A stretch of DNA of 64,000 nt from Bacteroidales bacterium (GTDB lineage: Bacteria > Bacteroidota > Bacteroidia > Bacteroidales > UBA932): positions 124,001 through 188,000 of the forward strand of contig JAFRUH010000033.1 of the NCBI GenBank assembly GCA_017438975.1, read 5' to 3'. Positions 47,927 to 55,404 of the stretch are shown here, piece after piece. The translations under genes and the position numbers were made by a program. The notes under the pieces were generated by a model. It was not told where the DNA came from. It saw nothing but the letters and a program-made list of their open reading frames with translations, and made no database searches. Position 1 is the first letter of the stretch. The number at the start of each line of letters is the position of its first letter.

Positions 47927-48925
47927 CTATCGCTCAAGCAGGGAAAGGAACTCTTCTGCCGCCGGATCCTCCGAAGAAGAGATCCTCCCCTTCAGGCGGT
48001 AAATCCGGTTGTAGACATAGGGCTTGTCCTTCTCCATCAAGGCCGCGATCGTCGTCGAAGAGAAGCCGGAAGCGACGAAACTGTAGAGCAGGAAATCCTC
48101 CTCCTTCCATTTCGGGAAGCTTGCGCGGAGACGCGTCATGATCCCGTCATGGTTTTCATCCAGGGACTCCTCCAGGGCTTTCTGGGTCTTGGGATCGGAA
48201 CGGAGCCCCTCGACGATCGAGCGGACTTCCTTGAGGATCCGGGGCTGGAGATTGGACGTCCCTTCATAGACATAGAACTGCTCGCAGAGCCGGTCGAGCA
48301 TGTCGACCCCGGCCACCTTCGCCCCTTTCTCGCGCTTGTTCTCCCGGCTGGACAGCCGGTTCTGCAAATCCTCCGCGACGGACATCAGCCGGTCGTTCTC
48401 GTTCTTTTCCTCCATCAGGAGCTTTTCCGTCTGGACCTTCCGGGCGTGGGAATACAGGATCAGGGTCGCCATCAGGGCGACGATAAGCAGCAGAAAGGCG
48501 GCGTAGCGCATCCGGGACATCTCGATCTTCCTCGCGGTCTCTCGCGCCTTCATCTGGCAGATCATCCCGGAGGACTGCCGCTGCGAGGAGGCCCGGACGG
48601 AGCCGAGCAGCTGCCACGCGCGGATCGCGGAGAGCGCCGGCCCGTGCGTGTCGAAAAACACGCAGGAAGAGAGAAGGGCGTCTTCGGCTTCTGTGTCCAG
48701 GAAATAATAATTCCGGTAAAAGGCCTCCGCATAGAGATAGTCGTATTCCGCCCGGTTCCGGTCATCCGAAAGAAGCATCCCGTCATACCGGTCCAGGGCG
48801 ACGAGGGCGCTGTCGGGAGCCGACTCGACAAAGCCTGAAATCCGCTCCAGTTCCGACTCTGTCCGGGAACAGGAAAGAGCCAGCAGGACGCCTGCAAGGG
48901 CATATATGAGCCATTTTGCCTTCAT
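47927..48925 (-). CDS. Membrane-anchored HTH regulator with shortened TPR sensor (paralogue 1)
   Basis: 332 aa. A lipoprotein-like signal (YALAGVLLALSCSRT) is followed by a short helical region (about residues 25-120) that looks like one or two TPR units, a membrane helix near residues 141-158 (YAAFLLLIVALMATLILY), a coiled coil (about 160-200) and a C-terminal helix-turn-helix domain: LRASFPKWKEEDFLLYSFVASGFSSTTIAALMEKDKPYVYNRIYRLK. The C-terminal part is clearly related to 53752-55404. These one-piece proteins sense outside the inner membrane and bind DNA inside; targets are unknown. It is preceded by a perfect promoter that overlaps the one driving the small paralogue at 49175. Confidence 0.8.
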   Translation of the reverse strand: MKAKWLIYALAGVLLALSCSRTESELERISGFVESAPDSALVALDRYDGMLLSDDRNRAEYDYLYAEAFYRNYYFLDTEAEDALLSSCVFFDTHGPALSAIRAWQLLGSVRASSQRQSSGMICQMKARETARKIEMSRMRYAAFLLLIVALMATLILYSHARKVQTEKLLMEEKNENDRLMSVAEDLQNRLSSRENKREKGAKVAGVDMLDRLCEQFYVYEGTSNLQPRILKEVRSIVEGLRSDPKTQKALEESLDENHDGIMTRLRASFPKWKEEDFLLYSFVASGFSSTTIAALMEKDKPYVYNRIYRLKGRISSSEDPAAEEFLSLLER

Positions 48926-48963: not shown

Positions 48964-48979
48964 AGTTTTATTATCTTTG
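48945..48979 (+). promoter_or_regulatory. Promoter for the leader and 162-aa membrane-HTH gene
   Basis: TATCTTTG at 48972-48979 is a good -7 box; a T-run at 48944-48948 could serve as -33 with a long spacer. It overlaps the divergent promoter at 48933-48963. Transcription from here makes a leader of about 190 nt with the competing hairpins at 49079-49166. Confidence 0.45.
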
Positions 48980-49078
48980 CTGTTAATTGAAAGCTTCATA
49001 ATTTAACCATACTGACCTTTTCCACCGTCCTGTTTCACTAAATGCGAACAAATCAATAAAGGCGGGGCGATGGAAAGG

Positions 49079-49166
49079 CCGTGTCAACGAGGCACGGTCT
49101 TTTCATCGTTTGCCTTTATGGGCCTTCGCATGCCTGTGAAACATTCGATGAAGACCGTGCCTTTTT
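49079..49166 (+). promoter_or_regulatory. Attenuator-like leader with mutually exclusive hairpins
   Basis: Segment 1 CCGTGTC (49079-49085) can pair with the start of segment 2 GGCACGG (49091-49097) around a 5-nt loop. Segment 2 (49091-49108) can instead pair with segment 3 (49146-49161): 11 bp, a 2-nt bulge and 5 bp, enclosing a 37-nt loop. The 2:3 helix is followed at once by TTTTT (49162-49166), eight bases before the start codon at 49175. This is the layout of a transcription attenuator placed directly before the gene. Confidence 0.6.
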
Positions 49167-49174
49167 GCTAAAAC

Positions 49175-49663
49175 ATGAAAAAGGCGCTATTCTTCCTTCT
49201 CCTCTCTTTTATCCTGTGTTTCTGTGTACTGCTCTTTCAGCTCCGTCAGGAAAGGAAGCTTCTCGAAAGGACCCTCCGCCAAATGGACACCCTCCGGGAA
49301 GAACTCATCCGGACGAAACGGGAAAACGCCCGGATCCTGGGAGAACTGTTCCTGCAGAAAAACGCATCCCTTCCGGAAGAAGAATGGTACCGATGGCTGG
49401 AAGAAGCGCTGGACCGGTACGAGAATAACGCCGTCAGGGAAGTCCGCACCGCCTTTCCCCGGTGCAAGGAATATCAGATCAGGCGCCTTTGCCTCTTTTT
49501 CGCCGGGCTTTCCTACCCGGCGATCCACACTCTGACAAAAGACTCCGTCGTCTCCTTGAAAGAAGCCAAATCACGCTTTCGGAAGCGGTTCCTCGCCCTC
49601 GGGACCGACTCCGGAAACTTCCTGGCCTCCCTGCTCGACGGACCGTCACATATCCTCCATTGA
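49175..49663 (+). CDS. Minimal membrane-anchored HTH protein (paralogue 2, no TPR)
   Basis: 162 aa. One N-terminal membrane helix (ALFFLLLSFILCFCVLLFQL, residues 4-23), a coiled coil (QERKLLERTLRQMDTLREELI, then RTKRENARILGELFLQ) and a helix-turn-helix domain with the family pattern VRTAFPRCKEYQIRRLCLFFAGLSYPAIHTLTKDSVVSLKEAKSRFRKRF. It lacks the outside sensor of its relatives at 47927 and 53752, so it may be a regulator that answers to dimerisation or to a partner. It lies behind an attenuator-like leader and is divergent from paralogue 1. Confidence 0.72.
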   Translation: MKKALFFLLLSFILCFCVLLFQLRQERKLLERTLRQMDTLREELIRTKRENARILGELFLQKNASLPEEEWYRWLEEALDRYENNAVREVRTAFPRCKEYQIRRLCLFFAGLSYPAIHTLTKDSVVSLKEAKSRFRKRFLALGTDSGNFLASLLDGPSHILH

Positions 49664-49720
49664 GAGGCAGGACAACTCTCTCAAGAAAAAAAGGCGGACC
49701 GGAGAATTCCGGCCCACCCG

Positions 49721-49868
49721 TTTCAGAGTTTAAGTTTAGTCCCTCCCGCGAGGGAAGGATTTTGCGGCGGCAAAAATGAGAAATCCCGCGGAAAAATCCA
49801 CGGGATCAAGGTAACACTTCTGATTTCTAATACTCTAATTATAAGCGCCTTACGAAAATCAAGGTAAC
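49721..49868 (+). repeat. Structured ~150-bp repeat, copy A (3' side of the esterase)
   Basis: It aligns along its whole length with 50904-51061 in the same orientation: GTTTAAGTTT near the start, then a G/C hairpin of differing sequence, GGCAAAAAT-AGAAATCCC and the hairpin ATCCCGCGGA-loop-TCCACGGGAT (stem identical in both copies, loop AAAA here), then two copies of ATCAAGGTAAC 50 bases apart. The hairpin just upstream (CCGGA/TCCGG) also has a differing counterpart in copy B. It fills most of the 260-base gap between the small HTH gene and the esterase. Confidence 0.75.
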
Positions 49869-49923
49869 GGATTCGCAAAGGACTGCTCCTGAAAGGGATC
49901 CTTCCCTCCAGATCAAGGCCGGC

Positions 49924-50712
49924 TCACTGGCGCTCGCGGATATACTGCAGCAGCAGGTAATGGGCCGGTTCCGCCATCGCACCGTGGCTGAATCCCCCCA
50001 GTTCCACGAAACGCACGTCGGGATGGCCGTTCAGGCGGAGCATCCGGACAAAATAGGCATTCTCCTCATAGCGCCCGTTCATCTCTTTCTCCCGGTCCCC
50101 GCTGATGACGAAGATCGGAGGTGCGTCCGCCCGCATATGGGCCATCGGCGCCAGGTCATCGATGGTCGGGGTCAAAGCGTCGATCCCCTGGGCTTTCCGC
50201 TCGGCAAAATGCGTGATGGACTGGCCGCTATAAGGGACGACGGCCGCCAGTCGGTCTGCATCGAGTCCATAGCGGGCCAGGTATTTCTTGTCCAGCCCCA
50301 GCATACTCACGAGATAACCGCCGGCGGAATGGCCCGCCAGGAAGACCCGGGTCGTATCCCCGCCGTACTTGGCCGCGTTCGCATAAACCCAGGCGACGGC
50401 CGCCGCCGCGTCGTCGATAATCTCCGCAACGCTGACGTTCGGGACCAGCCGGTAGCCCACGCTGATCACGAGGTGCCCGCTTTTGCATAGCGTTTCCGGA
50501 AGCGTCGCCTTCCCGCCCGTCAGACCGCCCCCATGGAACCACACGATGACCGGATGGCGCGCCTCATCCGTCGGCGCAGAAATCAGCAGCCGGCACTTCT
50601 CCCGGCAATACGCGTCCCCCTCCCGATAGATGACCGTCGTCGGAAGCGGGGTCTGTCCCGCCACCGTCCATGGCAGCAGGAACAATATCAGAATCAGTAT
50701 CTTCTTCATCAT
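49924..50712 (-). CDS. Secreted alpha/beta-hydrolase (esterase, BD-FAE/HSL-like)
   Basis: 262 aa from 50712 (MMKKILILILFLLPWTVAGQ, signal peptide; the second ATG at 50709 is equally possible). The oxyanion motif is HPVIVWFHGGGLTGG, the nucleophile is in VFLAGHSAGGYLVSM, the acid in PPIFVISGDREKEMN and the His in GGFSHGAMAE. Such enzymes release acetyl, feruloyl or other acyl groups from plant or mucin glycans. The gene is enclosed by two direct copies of a structured repeat, as if it were a mobile unit. Its promoter lies directly before the start codon. Confidence 0.88.
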   Translation of the reverse strand: MMKKILILILFLLPWTVAGQTPLPTTVIYREGDAYCREKCRLLISAPTDEARHPVIVWFHGGGLTGGKATLPETLCKSGHLVISVGYRLVPNVSVAEIIDDAAAAVAWVYANAAKYGGDTTRVFLAGHSAGGYLVSMLGLDKKYLARYGLDADRLAAVVPYSGQSITHFAERKAQGIDALTPTIDDLAPMAHMRADAPPIFVISGDREKEMNGRYEENAYFVRMLRLNGHPDVRFVELGGFSHGAMAEPAHYLLLQYIRERQ

Positions 50713-50716
50713 AATC

Positions 50717-50750
50717 CAAAGATACTGATTTTCCGGATTATTTGAACAAA
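50717..50750 (-). promoter_or_regulatory. Promoter of the esterase
   Basis: On the minus strand TTTG (50750-50747), 22 bases, TATCTTTG (50724-50717). The expected start of transcription is within a few bases of the ATG, so the mRNA is nearly leaderless. Confidence 0.6.
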
Positions 50751-50903
50751 AGACCCAGCCGGCGGCACAGAAAAGACCGGGTATCGGCAGAATGTCAAGG
50801 TAACAAAAACGCCTTTGTACGGCGCCAAGCGTGACAAACCCGGCTCTTCTTCTAGAAGGGGGTGCCCCAAAAGATTCTTCCTTCGGCTTTTGGCCCCCCC
50901 TGT

Positions 50904-51061
50904 TTTCAAAGTTTAAGTTTGTCCTCTCCGGCTCTCTTTCCCGGAAGGAAATTGCGATGGCAAAAATCAGAAATCCCGCGGAATAATCCACGGGATACGG
51001 GTTACATTTTCAACTTCTTAAATCCTGATAATCAGCCCCTTCGAAAAAAATTGGGTTACAT
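50904..51061 (+). repeat. Structured ~150-bp repeat, copy B (5' side of the esterase)
   Basis: Partner of 49721-49868. Same order: GTTTAAGTTT, a variable hairpin, GGCAAAAATCAGAAATCCC, the hairpin ATCCCGCGGA-ATAA-TCCACGGGAT, then two copies of GGGTTACAT. In copy A both end boxes read AAGGTAAC, in copy B both read GGGTTAC, so the two boxes change together within a copy. A hairpin CCAAAAG/CTTTTGG lies just upstream (about 50867-50893). The rest of the 504-base gap (50713-51216) holds another CAAGGTAAC (50795-50803) and small hairpins near 51077 and 51117-51148; I see no gene in it. Confidence 0.75.
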
Positions 51062-51216
51062 CGCTTGTCTTCCTTTCGCTCCGTAGCGGCCAATGCCCTG
51101 ACATTCAGCCGTTTAGTCCTCTCTTTTTGTCCTTTCGGAGACAGAGGAGGCGTATTACGTTGACTATCAACATGTTCTTTCTCGACTCGCCCAAGAACCG
51201 GCCGTTATCCATATTG

Positions 51217-51642
51217 TCAGCGGACCGGAACCGCCCTGATCATGGACGGTCGTTGATTACCCTTGTCGTCGATTTCGTACAAGGTTTGTAAATCTTCCGA
51301 AAGAGTGTATTCTACCCAAGAATAGATAACCCTCGTCAACGGAGTCGCCTTATGGCAAAGATGCAGGATATTGTCTTCGGTATACCAGTACTCAGAATCG
51401 TTTCTTATTAAAGTGCCGTCGATTCCGTAATAGGCATCGATGTATTTGAATTCTTCGTCGTCGAAACAAATAAAGTGATCCTCGTCGTTTACGCTTGCCC
51501 ACCAGCCGAACAGTCGTTCGTCGTGTGGCTTTGACATCACGGTTTCACGAAGGTTTTCATTGAGGCACTTCGTGCAGCCCGAAAAGAAGAAGGCAGCACC
51601 GCTGACCACTGCCAACAGAAAAAGATTATACCAACGATTCAT
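51217..51642 (-). CDS. Small lipoprotein of unknown function
   Basis: 141 aa from 51642 (MNRWYNLFLLAVVSGAAFFFSGC, lipoprotein signal); a start four codons earlier at 51654 is possible. The mature part is rich in acidic and aromatic residues (FGWWASVNDEDHFICFDDEEFKYIDAYYG) and suggests a small beta-barrel such as a lipocalin-like lipoprotein, but I do not recognise a family. Its base composition is lower in GC than the genes further left. The 11-base sequence GACTCGCCCAA occurs on both sides of the gene (51184-51194 and 51669-51679). It is downstream of the beta-barrel gene on the same strand, separated by a cluster of hairpins. Confidence 0.65.
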   Translation of the reverse strand: MNRWYNLFLLAVVSGAAFFFSGCTKCLNENLRETVMSKPHDERLFGWWASVNDEDHFICFDDEEFKYIDAYYGIDGTLIRNDSEYWYTEDNILHLCHKATPLTRVIYSWVEYTLSEDLQTLYEIDDKGNQRPSMIRAVPVR

Positions 51643-51714
51643 ACTATATCGCATTTACATGTACTCTTGACTCGCCCAACTATCCCCCGGTCCGCACAAA
51701 AATAACGCCAAAAC

Positions 51715-51842
51715 CCTGGGCGAGCTGATCTTGTGGGCCGGTTCACCCAGGAAAAGGGCCGAATTCCTGGACGAACCAGGGGCATTGTCGCCCAATAACG
51801 ACAATTCAGCACCGCAGGGCCAGGGAGAGACCTGCGGTGCTG
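51715..51842. repeat. Cluster of four hairpins
   Basis: In order: CCTGGG (51715-51720) with CCCAGG (51746-51751); CCTGG-acgaa-CCAGG (51766-51780); ATTGTCG with CGACAAT (51784-51805, 8-nt loop); and a perfect 12-bp stem CAGCACCGCAGG/CCTGCGGTGCTG (51807-51842, 12-nt loop). None has a U-run. The cluster fills the gap between the beta-barrel gene and the small lipoprotein, both on the minus strand. Confidence 0.7.
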
Positions 51843-51878
51843 GAAACGCCGGACGCCGTCCGGACGGACAGCGGGGCG

Positions 51879-52433
51879 TCAAAACACCCAGCCGGCGGAG
51901 AAATAATAAGCCGGTTGCGCCGCGCGGAAAACACGGGAACTATAATGAAGATGGCCAACGGTCAGACGAAGGTGATGGAACAGCTCAACCCCGGCCCGGG
52001 CGTGAAGATCGAGGCCCCATTCTTTCCAGGGTCTGCTTTCTCCGGACAAGCCATGCTGGTACTGAGGTCCGGCACCAACCCCGATAAAGGGAGACACGTT
52101 TTTGCTATAAAACATCCGGTATTCGGCAAGGGCATTCAGCGTATGTGTAAGATACGAGAACGAACGGAGGGTCTTTTCGTTATTATCTTCCTCCATAACT
52201 TGGCTCCACTCGGGCATCAGCTGGTACTGCACGCCCAGATGAAATCCTTTCCAGAGTTGGTAGCGGTACTCTCCATATAGATTCGCCGCGAAACGCTGAT
52301 TCGACCCGTCTCCATAATCCAGCGTCATTTCTCCGGGGAATGATACGCCGCCGCCGCATTCGAACGAACTTCTGTTCTGGGCCCCGAGCATCATCGGTGC
52401 CAAAATCATCATCAGTGCAAGTAATCTTTTCAT
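51879..52433 (-). CDS. Outer-membrane beta-barrel protein (opacity-like porin type)
   Basis: 184 aa. MKRLLALMMILAPMMLGAQ is a signal peptide. Alternating strands with aromatic girdles follow (RFAANLYGEYRYQLWKGFHLGVQYQLMP; TLNALAEYRMFYSKNVSPFIGVGAGPQY; GLDLHARAGVELFHHLRLTVGHLHY), and the protein ends in AYYFSAGWVF, with the C-terminal Phe that outer-membrane barrels use for insertion. An eight-stranded barrel is likely. Ligand or function unknown. It lies between two small lipoprotein genes on the same strand. Confidence 0.82.
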   Translation of the reverse strand: MKRLLALMMILAPMMLGAQNRSSFECGGGVSFPGEMTLDYGDGSNQRFAANLYGEYRYQLWKGFHLGVQYQLMPEWSQVMEEDNNEKTLRSFSYLTHTLNALAEYRMFYSKNVSPFIGVGAGPQYQHGLSGESRPWKEWGLDLHARAGVELFHHLRLTVGHLHYSSRVFRAAQPAYYFSAGWVF

Positions 52434-52508
52434 TTTTCCTCCTTGTGTTTTACGGGTCTAACCCTAAGTATTCATGTTCATAGGCCTAAAAACGAGTCCC
52501 TCACCGGG

Positions 52509-52554
52509 TTCGCCCATGGAACCCGCCATCATTATGGGGCTTTCCATGGGCGAA
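52509..52554 (-). promoter_or_regulatory. Competing hairpins between the lipoprotein and beta-barrel genes
   Basis: TTCGCCCATGGAA (52509-52521) and TTCCATGGGCGAA (52542-52554) form a perfect 13-bp pair. On the minus strand the distal arm can instead fold on itself as GGGTTC-7 nt-GAACCC (52525-52507), which is followed by GAGGGACTC and GTTTTT. This is again an either/or arrangement near a U-run, and could be an attenuator or a terminator. Confidence 0.5.
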
Positions 52555-52587
52555 GGGTCCCGAATGACGTTTTTTCAGCCGAAGCGA

Positions 52588-53127
52588 CTATTTCGCAGCC
52601 GGCTGTTGGACGACGATGCCTTCCTGCCCAGGCGTCTGCCGGTTCGGGATTTTTTCCCACTCTTCGTTCATGTCGTAGACCAAGACGACCCAGACTCGAC
52701 GCTCCTTATCCAAAGGATTTGCCCCCATCGATATCAGACATTCTCCCTTTGGATGTTTCATGTCCGCCTGATAGGTGCTCGTTGTCGTTTCGACATGGAC
52801 ATCTCCGTCTTCCGCCACCATCCGGTCCCGTTTTTCATCATACACGAAAGGAACCCGCTTCCCTTCTCCCAACTTATTCCCTTCTTCTGAGATGATCAGT
52901 TCTTTTCCATAGACCACCGGGGTCGGCTCGGACATATTCTCGCGCTCGGCATAGATGGAAACCGTTTCTTCGCACCCGGCCGCAGAGATATCCATCCCCC
53001 ACAATTCATCGTGCCCATTCATATAGATAAGAAGATAATCTCCACAGGCGTCGGTTTTATTACATGATACAAACGACACATTAGCGAACAACACCAAAGA
53101 TAAAAACAACAGAATCCTTTTCATCAT
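52588..53127 (-). CDS. Lipoprotein of unknown function
   Basis: 179 aa from 53127 (MMKRILLFLSLVLFANVSFVSC, lipoprotein signal; the next ATG at 53124 is also possible). I recognise no family. The mature part has an early Cys pair (NKTDACGDYLLI, AAGCEETVSIY), strands with many charged residues, and ends in GQEGIVVQQPAAK. It starts three bases after the stop of the 45-aa peptide gene and is surely co-translated with it, so the two may work together. AT-richer than the core genome. Confidence 0.68.
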   Translation of the reverse strand: MMKRILLFLSLVLFANVSFVSCNKTDACGDYLLIYMNGHDELWGMDISAAGCEETVSIYAERENMSEPTPVVYGKELIISEEGNKLGEGKRVPFVYDEKRDRMVAEDGDVHVETTTSTYQADMKHPKGECLISMGANPLDKERRVWVVLVYDMNEEWEKIPNRQTPGQEGIVVQQPAAK

Positions 53128-53130
53128 CAA

Positions 53131-53268
53131 TTAGAATTTGTGGTTAAACAAATTATAGATGCATCTTTCTCCGCATTCGTTGCACCGACTGTCCCTTATA
53201 GGGAAAGCCCAGGATGTGGCAAACGATGCAATAATGCATGCCAACATAATAAGTTGTTTTCTCATCAT
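53131..53268 (-). CDS. 45-aa secreted cysteine-rich peptide
   Basis: Translated from the minus strand: MMRKQLIMLACIIASFATSW then AFPIRDSRCNECGERCIYNL and FNHKF. The first 20-22 residues are a signal peptide with a likely cut after SWA, leaving a mature peptide of about 23 residues with the cysteine cluster CNECGERC. The start is at 53268 or 53265. The stop is followed after three bases by the start of the lipoprotein gene (TAATTGATG), which supports real translation. It could be a signalling or antibacterial peptide or a metal-binding peptide; it does not carry the NVEALA motif of known Bacteroidota small secreted peptides. Confidence 0.55.
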   Translation of the reverse strand: MMRKQLIMLACIIASFATSWAFPIRDSRCNECGERCIYNLFNHKF

Positions 53269-53440
53269 GTTTTTGTTTTACGATTAATGAATGATAATTA
53301 CTTATTACAAAGGTCGGGACTATATCTGATATCTTCATAAAACAAGATATAACAAATACTCCTAAACCATATTAACTATCAATAGGTTACAAAACCGCAA
53401 TATAACAAGCATATAAAGGGCCTCTCCTTCTCTTGTTTTG

Positions 53441-53472
53441 TTTTTATTTTTTGAGGATTTGTCGTACCTTTA
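53441..53472 (+). promoter_or_regulatory. Possible promoter of the 550-aa regulator and its leader
   Basis: TACCTTTA at 53465-53472 differs from TAnnTTTG in the last base, with a T-rich -33 area 20 bases upstream. The leader to the gene at 53752 would be about 275 nt. The 483-base gap 53269-53751 holds this promoter, an AT-rich stretch (53281-53340 has 17 G or C in 60) and the leader hairpins; no gene was seen in it. Confidence 0.35.
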
Positions 53473-53559
53473 TGCTGAAAAAAACGATTTCGAAATAAAA
53501 GGAATCTTATTGACAGGCTAACTCAAACCTTGCACTATTTTGAATCCACAGCCTTGGCA

Positions 53560-53732
53560 ATAAGATTTCCCGTGTCGCCGGACATGGGAAATCTTATGAT
53601 GTGGATCCCCTGCACGGAGGTGAGGTGTCATAAGAGATCCCATGTCTTTTATCCTGTCTATAAGATGACGGCATAGCTGCCGGGAGCCCTCATCATAGAC
53701 CTTCATGATAATTACTATTTTTCCCGGCAGCT
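53560..53732 (+). promoter_or_regulatory. Attenuator-like leader of the 550-aa regulator: three competing segments plus a distal hairpin
   Basis: Segment 1 (53560-53576) and segment 2 (53581-53597) form a 17-bp helix with one G-T pair and the tetraloop GCCG. Segment 2 can instead pair with segment 3 (53629-53646) over 9 + 7 bp around a 2-nt mismatch, extended by several wobble pairs; the 2:3 helix is directly followed by TTTT (53647-53650). Segments 1 and 3 are near copies (AATAAGATTTCCCGTGTC against CATAAGAGATCCCATGTC). A further hairpin AGCTGCCGGGA/TCCCGGCAGCT (53675-53685 with 53722-53732) encloses a 36-nt loop and is followed by TTTCTTTAT shortly before the start codon. Confidence 0.65.
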
Positions 53733-53751
53733 TTCTTTATAAATGCCTATA

Positions 53752-55404
53752 ATGAAAAACTCCTTTTTCTTATTTGTTCTCCTTTGTTCTTTTCTGAGTT
53801 CTTGTTCTCCGGTCTCCCGGTCTATGAAACTGGCCGAAGAGATCGTCATGGACTATCCGGACAGTGCCTTTGCGCTCCTTCGAGACATTCCGATTGAGAG
53901 CGCACATACACCCTGGGCAAAGGCTCGGCTATCCTTGCTAAAAACAATCGCAGAGAATAGAACAGGTGTATGGATCAGTGATGACTCCCTTGTCCTCAAA
54001 GCCTATCATTATTATCAATGGTTCGGGAAGAAAGAGAATAGAATGAAAACCCTGTATTACAAAGGGTTGGTTGAGCATAATAAGGGTGATTATATCAATG
54101 CCTGCCAGTCTCTCCTTCAAGCAGAACAATTATCTCAAGAAGTGCATGACAATCATTATTTGGGACTTATCTACCGGCATCTGTCTGAAATCTACACGGA
54201 GAATTACGATTATGTTAGAGCGCTGAAGTACGGCGAAAAAGCGTTAGCCGCATTCAATGAGAAGAAAGAGAAAATCTACGCCGATTATATGGCGGCCTTT
54301 ATCGCAGGATTGTATATCGGACAACACAATTGGGGAAAAGCCCGCCAATGGGCGGACTCTCTTCTCAGAGACATCTCCATCAATAACAGTGTTTACTGCC
54401 AAGCGACAAGATACAAGGCGGAGACATATATCTGGCAAGCTGATTATAAGACTGCCGATACTTGTTACCAACGATTATTGGAACGAAACACGCCTCTCCT
54501 TAATCGCGATCTTTTCGGTTTAGCTATGGTTAAAGAGTATTCAGGCGATTCTGAGAATGCCGATATGCTTTTGAAACAAATCGAGGCTTTAGTTGAAACG
54601 CCTGAAGACAGTGCCTACTATTATGATAATAAACACAACGTCTACGACCTTCGGGGCGACATTCCGGCGGCTTATGACGCGCTGGTAGAAGCGCTGAAGG
54701 TCCAGAACCGCGTCGTCCGGCAACAGCTGGAACAGTCCGTCAGCTACTCCATGGCCTCCGCTTATCAGAGTCAATACGAACTGGAGCGAACCCGCCATCG
54801 CCTCACGCGTATCGTCTGGATGTGCTCCGGCCTGGTCCTGCTGCTGTTCATCCTTGGCCTGATGCTGCTCCTCCGCCGGAAAAACCGGACCCTCCTTGAA
54901 GAAATGGCTGTTGTTGAGGAGGTTGAGAGGGACCTTGAGAGGCAACGGGTGCGGGAAAAAGAAATTTCGACTGTCCTGGATTCTTTCATTTCGGAGAAGA
55001 TCCGCTCCCTTCACAATATCGCAGAAACTTATTTCAACTGGGAAGACGAGTCGATCCGGAAAAGGGAGGAGAAGCAGGGAAAAATGACGCCAAACGAGAT
55101 GCTGACCGCCTTCCATCGCCAGGTCGGCGAAATCCGGAAGGACAAGCGCTTTATCCGAACCCTCGAATCGCACCTGAACCTGTCTCATGACGGGTTGATG
55201 GACCGGCTCCGGAAAGATTTCCCGAAATGGGACGAGGAGGACTTTACGATCCTGACGCTGTTCTTCTCCGGATTCTCCGCCAAAAGCATCGGATTCTTCC
55301 TGCGGATGTCAGACCCGGCCGTCAGAATGAGGAAGACCCGCTTCAAGCAGGCCTTCGAAAAACTCCCCGACGGACGCGGCGCGGATTATCTGGAACGACT
55401 CTGA
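53752..55404 (+). CDS. TPR-membrane-HTH regulator (paralogue 3, full form)
   Basis: 550 aa from 53752 (MKNSFFLFVLLCSFLSSCSP, lipoprotein signal); the ATG three codons earlier is less likely. About residues 25-330 are TPR-like helices (LLKAYHYYQWFGKKENRMKTLYYKGLVEHNKGDYINA and similar), then a membrane helix near 360 (IVWMCSGLVLLLFILGLMLLL), a coiled coil (LLEEMAVVEEVERDLERQR) and a C-terminal HTH domain LRKDFPKWDEEDFTILTLFFSGFSAKSIGFFLRMSDPAVRMRKTRFKQAF. The TPR half is AT-rich (54001-54060 has 21 of 60 G or C), the membrane-HTH half is not (54841-54900 has 35 of 60), as if two pieces were joined near 54640. It is divergent from the peptide/lipoprotein/barrel genes, which may be its targets. 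Confidence 0.82.
   Translation: MKNSFFLFVLLCSFLSSCSPVSRSMKLAEEIVMDYPDSAFALLRDIPIESAHTPWAKARLSLLKTIAENRTGVWISDDSLVLKAYHYYQWFGKKENRMKTLYYKGLVEHNKGDYINACQSLLQAEQLSQEVHDNHYLGLIYRHLSEIYTENYDYVRALKYGEKALAAFNEKKEKIYADYMAAFIAGLYIGQHNWGKARQWADSLLRDISINNSVYCQATRYKAETYIWQADYKTADTCYQRLLERNTPLLNRDLFGLAMVKEYSGDSENADMLLKQIEALVETPEDSAYYYDNKHNVYDLRGDIPAAYDALVEALKVQNRVVRQQLEQSVSYSMASAYQSQYELERTRHRLTRIVWMCSGLVLLLFILGLMLLLRRKNRTLLEEMAVVEEVERDLERQRVREKEISTVLDSFISEKIRSLHNIAETYFNWEDESIRKREEKQGKMTPNEMLTAFHRQVGEIRKDKRFIRTLESHLNLSHDGLMDRLRKDFPKWDEEDFTILTLFFSGFSAKSIGFFLRMSDPAVRMRKTRFKQAFEKLPDGRGADYLERL

Follow-up and report, generated by a model that had tools for sequence, protein, structure and literature searches.

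Two leaders in a Bacteroidales genome are copies of one Bacteroidota RNA family, most likely a transcription attenuator

Introduction

In transcription attenuators of the trp and his type, RNA segments that share a partner form mutually exclusive pairings, one of which is followed by a run of T residues, while riboswitches built on an intrinsic-terminator platform combine a conserved core and variable helices with a terminator output and occur in several copies per genome. In Bacteroidota the promoter −7 consensus is TAnnTTTG and, to our knowledge, few regulatory RNA classes special to this phylum are known. Here we describe a structured RNA that occurs twice in a 64,000-nt stretch of a Bacteroidales genome (GenBank assembly GCA_017438975.1, contig JAFRUH010000033.1, positions 124,001 to 188,000 of the forward strand; the whole stretch is called the window and is numbered from its first letter), where it forms the leaders of two genes for regulators with a membrane segment and a helix–turn–helix (HTH) end. 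An initial annotation had noted that in each leader a segment 2 could pair with a preceding segment 1 or with a following segment 3 (pairings 1:2 and 2:3). Judged by the models and counts given below, the two leaders belong, as separate copies, to a single RNA family of the Bacteroidota which is most likely a transcription attenuator, a reading to which we give barely better than an even chance.

The family RNA is like the trp/his-type attenuators in its mutually exclusive pairings with a shared segment and in its T-run, but differs in having a long rod with a special core, in standing before many unrelated genes and in that an open reading frame (ORF) in leader 1 is not preserved in the single relative compared. 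It is like the terminator riboswitches in core, helices, terminator and copy number, whereas its downstream genes have no obvious common pathway. Several published leaders and RNAs, taken here from the accessible portions of the reports, can be set beside it. The UpxY-controlled capsule leaders of Bacteroides have in common with it termination (predicted in our case) inside operon 5′ leaders of Bacteroidota, and the accessible portion of that report describes them without an RNA shape (PMC7819879). The roc mRNA leader controls a gene in Bacteroides thetaiotaomicron (PMC10294740), the common point, by description only, being an mRNA leader that controls a Bacteroidota gene, and another report mentions long leaders containing short ORFs in an arrangement that recalls attenuation (PMC7366714). 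HMP2_4205 is a 132-bp palindromic candidate RNA near TPR genes of Bacteroidetes with a predicted terminator (PMC8040213); it resembles the family RNA in size, phylum, palindrome, TPR neighbours and terminator, is presented in the accessible portion without an alternation and, compared by description only, may be part of the family. The Rfam DUF805 RNA (RF03081) is cis-regulatory and gives no match to the element itself; at one locus (L224:704–773) it begins 33 nt 3′ of the family RNA, before the same gene. A literature search, with most subscription papers outside its reach, found no description of the family RNA.

Results

Competing segments in the two leaders

The features of leader 1, all on the + strand, are as follows; G119 is the nearest relative found.

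48972–48979, +, promoter −7 box TATCTTTG, which fits the TAnnTTTG consensus, letters unchanged in G119
49031–49063, +, 5′ arm of the rod, which folds in the window and in G119: helix a TGTTTCAC (49031–49038), TAA, helix b ATGCGAA (49042–49048), CAAATCA, helix c ATAAAGGC
49065–49085, +, segment 1, 21 bp with 49091–49111
49089–49111, +, segment 2, of which 49091–49111 is used in 1:2 and 49089–49102 in 2:3
49112–49143, +, 3′ arm of the rod: c′, GGGCC, b′ TTCGCAT, GCCT, a′ GTGAAACA
49146–49163, +, segment 3, of which 49150–49163 pairs with 49089–49102
49162–49166, +, T-run after the 2:3 hairpin, 8 nt 5′ of the start codon, seen in the sequence

Those of leader 2 are:

53465–53472, +, probable −7 box TACCTTTA, in G119 TACCTTTG
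53504–53517, +, 5′ half ATCTTATTGACAGG of the closing helix P1, pairs with 53653–53666
53523–53550, +, 5′ arm of the rod: TCAAA, b CCTTGCA, CTATTTTGA, c ATCCACA (from the alignment to model R3, below)
53560–53576, +, segment 1, 17 bp with 53581–53597
53580–53598, +, segment 2, pairing computed
53600–53627, +, 3′ arm of the rod: c′, b′ TGCACGG, AGG, a′ (from the same alignment)
53628–53646, +, segment 3, pairing computed
53647–53650, +, T-run after the 2:3 hairpin, seen in the sequence
53653–53666, +, 3′ half of P1, pairs with 53504–53517
53675–53738, +, second terminator-like hairpin AGCTGCCGGGA/TCCCGGCAGCT with TTTCTTT, directly 5′ of the regulator gene; G119 keeps the hairpin with a wobble change

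The competing segments lie in both leaders where they had been annotated, and none of 1000 dinucleotide shuffles of either leader reached the observed triple (best shuffle −26.5 against −55.7 observed for leader 1, and −33.8 against −40.5 for leader 2). In leader 2 the 17-bp 1:2 pairing (53560–53576 with 53581–53597, tetraloop GCCG) was recovered as first described, and 2:3 consists of 10 bp adjoining TTTT plus a distal part. For leader 1 the segment positions and the TTTTT after 2:3 (14 bp) stood, but 1:2 is not the 7-bp helix first proposed: it comprises 21 bp including wobbles and is the tip of a long rod, as 49031–49063 pairs further with 49112–49143. When the full window was surveyed on both strands the two leaders ranked first and third among 16 triples passing the cut-offs. 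The second-ranked triple (minus strand, 51779–51714) lies before a 145-amino-acid gene and is regarded as a different element because it scores only 8.8 bits with R3; the surrounding 226 nt (51655–51880, minus strand) fold at −114 kcal/mol, and the gene behind them is lipoprotein-like. The fourth, at 39 kb, is intragenic, and there model R2 with default filters found nothing up to E 10, and the fifth is the opposite strand of the hairpin of leader 2 itself. A GGCAGC-type hairpin, the counterpart of 53675–53738, precedes the regulators of several relatives, and there a TATCTTTG box often comes after it.

One RNA family

BLASTN of the leaders against 36 relatives and the own genome gave only 20–27-nt matches outside the own locus; it was uninformative because the leader sequence drifts too fast, and what worked was a covariance model. 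Elsewhere in the genus, leaders of related regulators show this plan in different letters. Three models were built in succession, R1 on two sequences, R2 on eight and R3 on 36; a MAFFT alignment of ten distant members looked poor on its 3′ side and did not serve for model building. R1 matched leader 2 at E 2e-8 as well as seven other distinct loci (E up to 0.013), and R2 matched ten loci that had been outside training so far (L124, L070, L074, L067, L099, L127, L108, L155, L119 and L150; E 1e-8 to 0.0015). R3, from whose training leader 1 was absent, scored leader 1 at 51.0 bits (E 2.2e-13 in 16 kb, filters off, match 49030–49167), the antisense tip of leader 2 reaching 18.0 bits and the best other non-leader match 11.3 bits in the same search; with default filters in 711 kb, leader 1 had E 9.7e-12 and its G119 copy E 2.9e-12. 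Leader 1 was missed by R1 and R2 at default filters, and R2 with filters off gave 31.3 bits sense and 5.5 antisense. As leader 1 is found by a model trained without it, the two leaders are relatives in one structured RNA family, and the earlier impression that they share a layout and no sequence was mistaken. Antisense strands of true members score 18–31 bits with R1 and R2, because the rods are self-complementary.

R3 also found a third clear copy in the own genome (C22:233795–233984, 47.8 bits). That search listed leader 2 and the C22 copy and not leader 1, presumably because the search begins with a coarse pass, and genome counts given below are therefore lower bounds. Rfam 15 contained no family reaching threshold in the window element, nor in sets of 11 and then 20 further loci; the L208 element had no match up to E 5, and at L218, L224 and L229 only SNORA22 (21.5 bits, threshold 80) and TLS-PK6 (20.1 bits, threshold 44) overlapped the elements up to E 10. 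No Rfam family, T-box, known riboswitches and 6S included, thus reached its threshold in any element tested, in keeping with the initial view that no T-box or riboswitch fits.

Conserved structure and core

Alignment A12 has 83 distinct rows fitted to the model, a procedure that favours structure counts. Standard pairs occupy 89.9% of its 3677 paired cells, against 57.3% with the 3′ letters shuffled and 33–45% with partners slid; changes on both sides occur in 1249 cells against 398 shuffled, and the covariation score is 0.771 against 0.208. Both-sided change was seen at 46 of the 48 pairs, a figure equalled in 98 of 500 shuffles and so not above chance, while the other four measures were reached by none of the 500. 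In the rod of leader 1, GGGC/GCCT of the window is AGGT/ACCT in G119, and in relatives P1 of leader 2 keeps its pairing with changed letters. Leader 1 is well kept in G119 (89% mean column identity over promoter and leader, the tool's figure), the protein behind it being only 46% identical. Rod cells hold 302 G-U against 40 A-C combinations, and since G-U is far above A-C the gene-sense strand is the folded one.

Between the variable helices stand letters that are nearly fixed: A in 83/83 rows, G in 82/83 and CC in 80/83 and 81/83. Local pairing is open to them: AAA can join UUU over one strand of helix b, and GGY can join RCC over the opposite strand. The third GGY/RCC pair (x and y in GGx..yCC) is formed in all 79 rows that have the motif (shuffles: mean 59.0, maximum 69), the four rows set aside being L100, window leader 2, L122 and L108, where by eye other letters pair. 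Taken together the two short stems are paired in 90.4% of cells (85.2% when shuffled) and changed on both sides in 44 cells (15 when shuffled), mostly in GGY/RCC; the AAA/UUU stem is nearly without covariation, one of its three pairs changing on both sides in four sequences. A slip-tolerant test of the two stems beat all 500 shuffles narrowly (83/83 rows against a mean of 76.1 and maximum of 80; 79/83 against 73.4 and 78). This pattern suggests that the core contains a pair of short stems whose loops are complementary; helix b can then be read as two hairpins joined loop to loop, and may be a kissing complex.

Competition, terminator and promoter signals

For these counts 81 distinct elements were kept from 84 matches, three duplicates being dropped. 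Segment 2 pairs with its own segment 3 at a mean of −20.4 kcal/mol, against −12.0 with the segments 3 of other members; the own segment 3 beats the median of the others in 76/81 and lies in the best tenth in 54/81. In a set of 46 sequences the own segment 3 beat all the others in only 10/42. The initial annotation had named loss of the alternating pairing among homologous leaders as the finding that would tell against it; with 89.9% of rod cells paired and the own 2:3 energy below the median in 76/81, the alternation is conserved. In four members compared by eye (not a counted test) the positions at which segment 1 departs from the complement of segment 2 are wobble-compatible. A third alternative, pairing of the 5′ region with segment 3, proved weak (own −14.2, cross −12.5; median beaten in 54/81, best tenth in 17/81).

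By consensus a T-rich run follows segment 3 in 68/81 elements. In 67/81, where base-shuffled stretches lead one to expect 6.0, the 170 nt upstream contain a TAnnTTTG box, mostly 45–75 nt 5′ of the rod; a scan for the consensus box alone found a further one between RNA and gene in 7/62. The free energy of the rod and of the open 2:3 state is −62.9 and −51.4 for leader 1 and −55.4 and −40.6 for leader 2, so that with the rod more stable by 11–15 kcal/mol in both window leaders read-through would be the default.

Genomic position and genes served

Genes were called by our own ORF rule, and the 80 elements with at least 250 nt beyond them were counted. The next gene is on the same strand in 68/80, 58 of these 68 starting within 135 nt (two overlapping the match end), whereas the gene behind the element is on the same strand in 48/74. 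Regulators of the window family make up 18/68 of the same-strand downstream genes, a share biased by loci partly chosen around regulators. As 50/68 are other genes, the proposal that the RNA belongs to envelope-sensing regulators does not hold. Those others (49 scanned, one near-duplicate left out) are a mixed set of 31 families; among the 25 families listed are Lcl_C domains (3), EcoRI-type methylase (2), BspA-type repeats (2), type IX secretion system (T9SS) tails (2), C10 peptidase, RadC and CsgG; in the phylum scan TonB-dependent receptors are the next genes at L257 and L258.

In 100 regulator-centred loci with 109 family genes, R3 gave 27 sense matches at E 0.05 (L050 and L096 being one place), of which 25 are within 1 kb of a family gene, as is 47% of that DNA. 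Relative to the regulator 17 are upstream, eight convergent, one divergent and one downstream. Strong triples were present upstream of 10 of 116 family genes and 3 of 437 others (p 2e-5), counted from 119 and 483 upstream regions, the rest having negative intergenic lengths by the gene calls.

Two RNAs, at L204:1435–1587 and L206:6683–6836, are nearly identical while the genes behind them differ from the start codon on, and here the leader seems exchangeable between genes. L207 and L208 have two tandem copies, each 5′ of a small ORF, and a nearby gene is restriction-like by eye.

Distribution

Within the genus at least 89 of 400 genomes match R2 at E ≤0.01 with strict filters, the listing including two antisense echoes of true places. 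In the order R3 matched at least 58 of 188 sampled genomes and at least 48 of 148 genera (own genome and one congener included), with up to 16 copies listed per genome where 16 candidates were scored, and in the phylum at least 20 of 198 genomes (own included), four of them outside the class. The sole plasmid copy found, on NZ_CP033916.1 of Chryseobacterium shandongense, scores 73.2 bits with R3, and its next annotated same-strand gene starts 844 nt past the match. The phage records searched gave no match; in viral contigs two exact patterns were absent and a third occurred in two copies. Many of the order-wide matches (not counted) lie less than 500 nt from contig ends, as if adjoining repeats.

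Regulator genes of the window

47927–48925, −, 332-amino-acid member of the regulator family, transcribed away from leader 1
49175–49663, +, 162-amino-acid regulator behind leader 1, a short family member with a membrane segment, a coiled coil (by eye) and the family HTH end
53743–55404, +, 553-amino-acid TPR/membrane/HTH regulator behind leader 2, BT3442-like, with Pfam TPR_12 and a 69% relative in G119

One profile hidden Markov model, made from proteins of 500–640 amino acids related to the 553-amino-acid regulator (which may itself be included), matches all three, with E 3e-197 for the 553-, 5.7e-50 for the 332- and 2.2e-23 for the 162-amino-acid protein, the last having the 46% identical relative in G119. 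The largest protein matches NCBIfam BT3442 with a score far below the family cut-off. Both leaders had been assigned to a single TPR/membrane/HTH family; the shared profile bears this out for the family, but a domain scan found no TPR in the 162-amino-acid protein. At 49721–49858 and 50904–51048 the window carries two copies of an intergenic repeat that are 75–79% identical.

Discussion

By comparison across genomes the family RNA, as yet without a name, covaries, is spread through the phylum and usually stands as a leader; the competition between its rod and a terminator-like hairpin is conserved. In the attenuator that we favour, the nascent RNA would fold the rod first and, while 1:2 stands, segment 2 would be occupied and RNA polymerase would read on; if 1:2 were opened or never formed, the 2:3 terminator would stop transcription before the gene. 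A protein or small molecule holding or opening the conserved core would set the balance, and at leader 2 the second terminator-like hairpin would be an additional barrier. The conserved alternation, the upstream box, the T-run and the position before genes speak for the attenuator of the initial annotation, but the RNA is not always a leader, six of the copies near regulators being convergent with them within 126 nt.

Several further observations weigh against an attenuator. Eight of the 27 matches at regulator-centred loci are convergent, these six and two at 1.8 and 2.9 kb, and 12/80 copies have no same-strand next gene (among them L103, a gene-calling fault, and L197, which ends 319 nt before the contig end). 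A clear T-run is missing in 13/81 and, by eye, L100 and L103 combine a poor fit of segment 3 to segment 2 with a weak T-run. The rod beats the 2:3 state by 8 to 27 kcal/mol in 11/11 members computed, so that the switch would need a strong outside push. In G119 leader 2 lacks 77 nt, and with them both segments of the 1:2 pairing and the rod's 3′ arm, and the regulator remains; the 5′ arm, segment 3, closing helix and last hairpin are retained, and the absence looks like a deletion on the G119 side, a direction that we infer.

The convergent copies speak for an RNA that can also be its own gene, and beside some regulators it may be one. That the whole family consists of stand-alone small RNA genes acting in trans, each with its own promoter and a terminator (2:3 or the next hairpin) and often lying before genes, is unlikely, although it deserves more weight than any other alternative. 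Copies convergent behind regulators at L122, L154, L155, L150, L108 and L140, the L118/L194 copy with its next gene on the other strand, the second TATCTTTG box that G190, L067 and others carry after the RNA and before the gene, and the strong last hairpin of leader 2 would all suit such a gene, but 68/80 copies precede a same-strand gene against 48/74 with one behind, and the second box occurs in only 7/62.

Rather less probable is processive antitermination, in which the core would be the landing site of a NusG-type (UpxY- or LoaP-like) or other RNA-binding protein that carries polymerase through 2:3. The core letters are conserved while the helices vary freely, which such a site would explain, but the core could bind anything; UpxY is reported to act in the 5′ leaders of capsule operons in Bacteroides, and LoaP to carry transcription past hairpins (PMC7819879).

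We very much doubt that the palindrome is an attC-like recombination hairpin, read as folded single-stranded DNA with the genes as cassettes. The near-identical RNAs before different genes (L204, L206), the tandem copies of L207 and L208, with a small gene following each, the many copies near contig ends and a gene with a phage-integrase SAM-like domain (L263:2–1000, Pfam E 1e-12) near the L263 copy are what it would predict, but a promoter box and a T-run lie at regular places, and the excess of G-U over A-C is a strand asymmetry that disfavours a fold indifferent to transcription. Leader-peptide attenuation, with a ribosome in the leader setting the pairing, is still harder to credit: short ORFs do cross both leaders (49071–49172 and 53586–53678), but that of leader 1 is frame-shifted in G119, the one relative compared, and translation of this ORF, once suggested as a trigger, loses its footing there. 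Chance hairpins or plain terminators can be dismissed, for common as terminator-like hairpins are, neither leader was matched in 1000 shuffles and the family covaries across the phylum.

To the attenuator reading we would add, tentatively and as something short of probable, that this is an undescribed phylum-wide class of regulatory leader RNA whose sensor would be an intramolecular kissing complex (GAAA/UUUC and GGY/RCC stems with loops forming helix b) coupled to the switch between rod tip and terminator, and which would serve as an interchangeable control cassette ahead of accessory genes, namely those for surface proteins, methylases and TPR regulators, some genomes having 16 or more copies. 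If the class is real, present as it is in 58/188 genomes of the order, with several copies in many and no Rfam entry, it would constitute an extra layer of control over accessory and surface genes.

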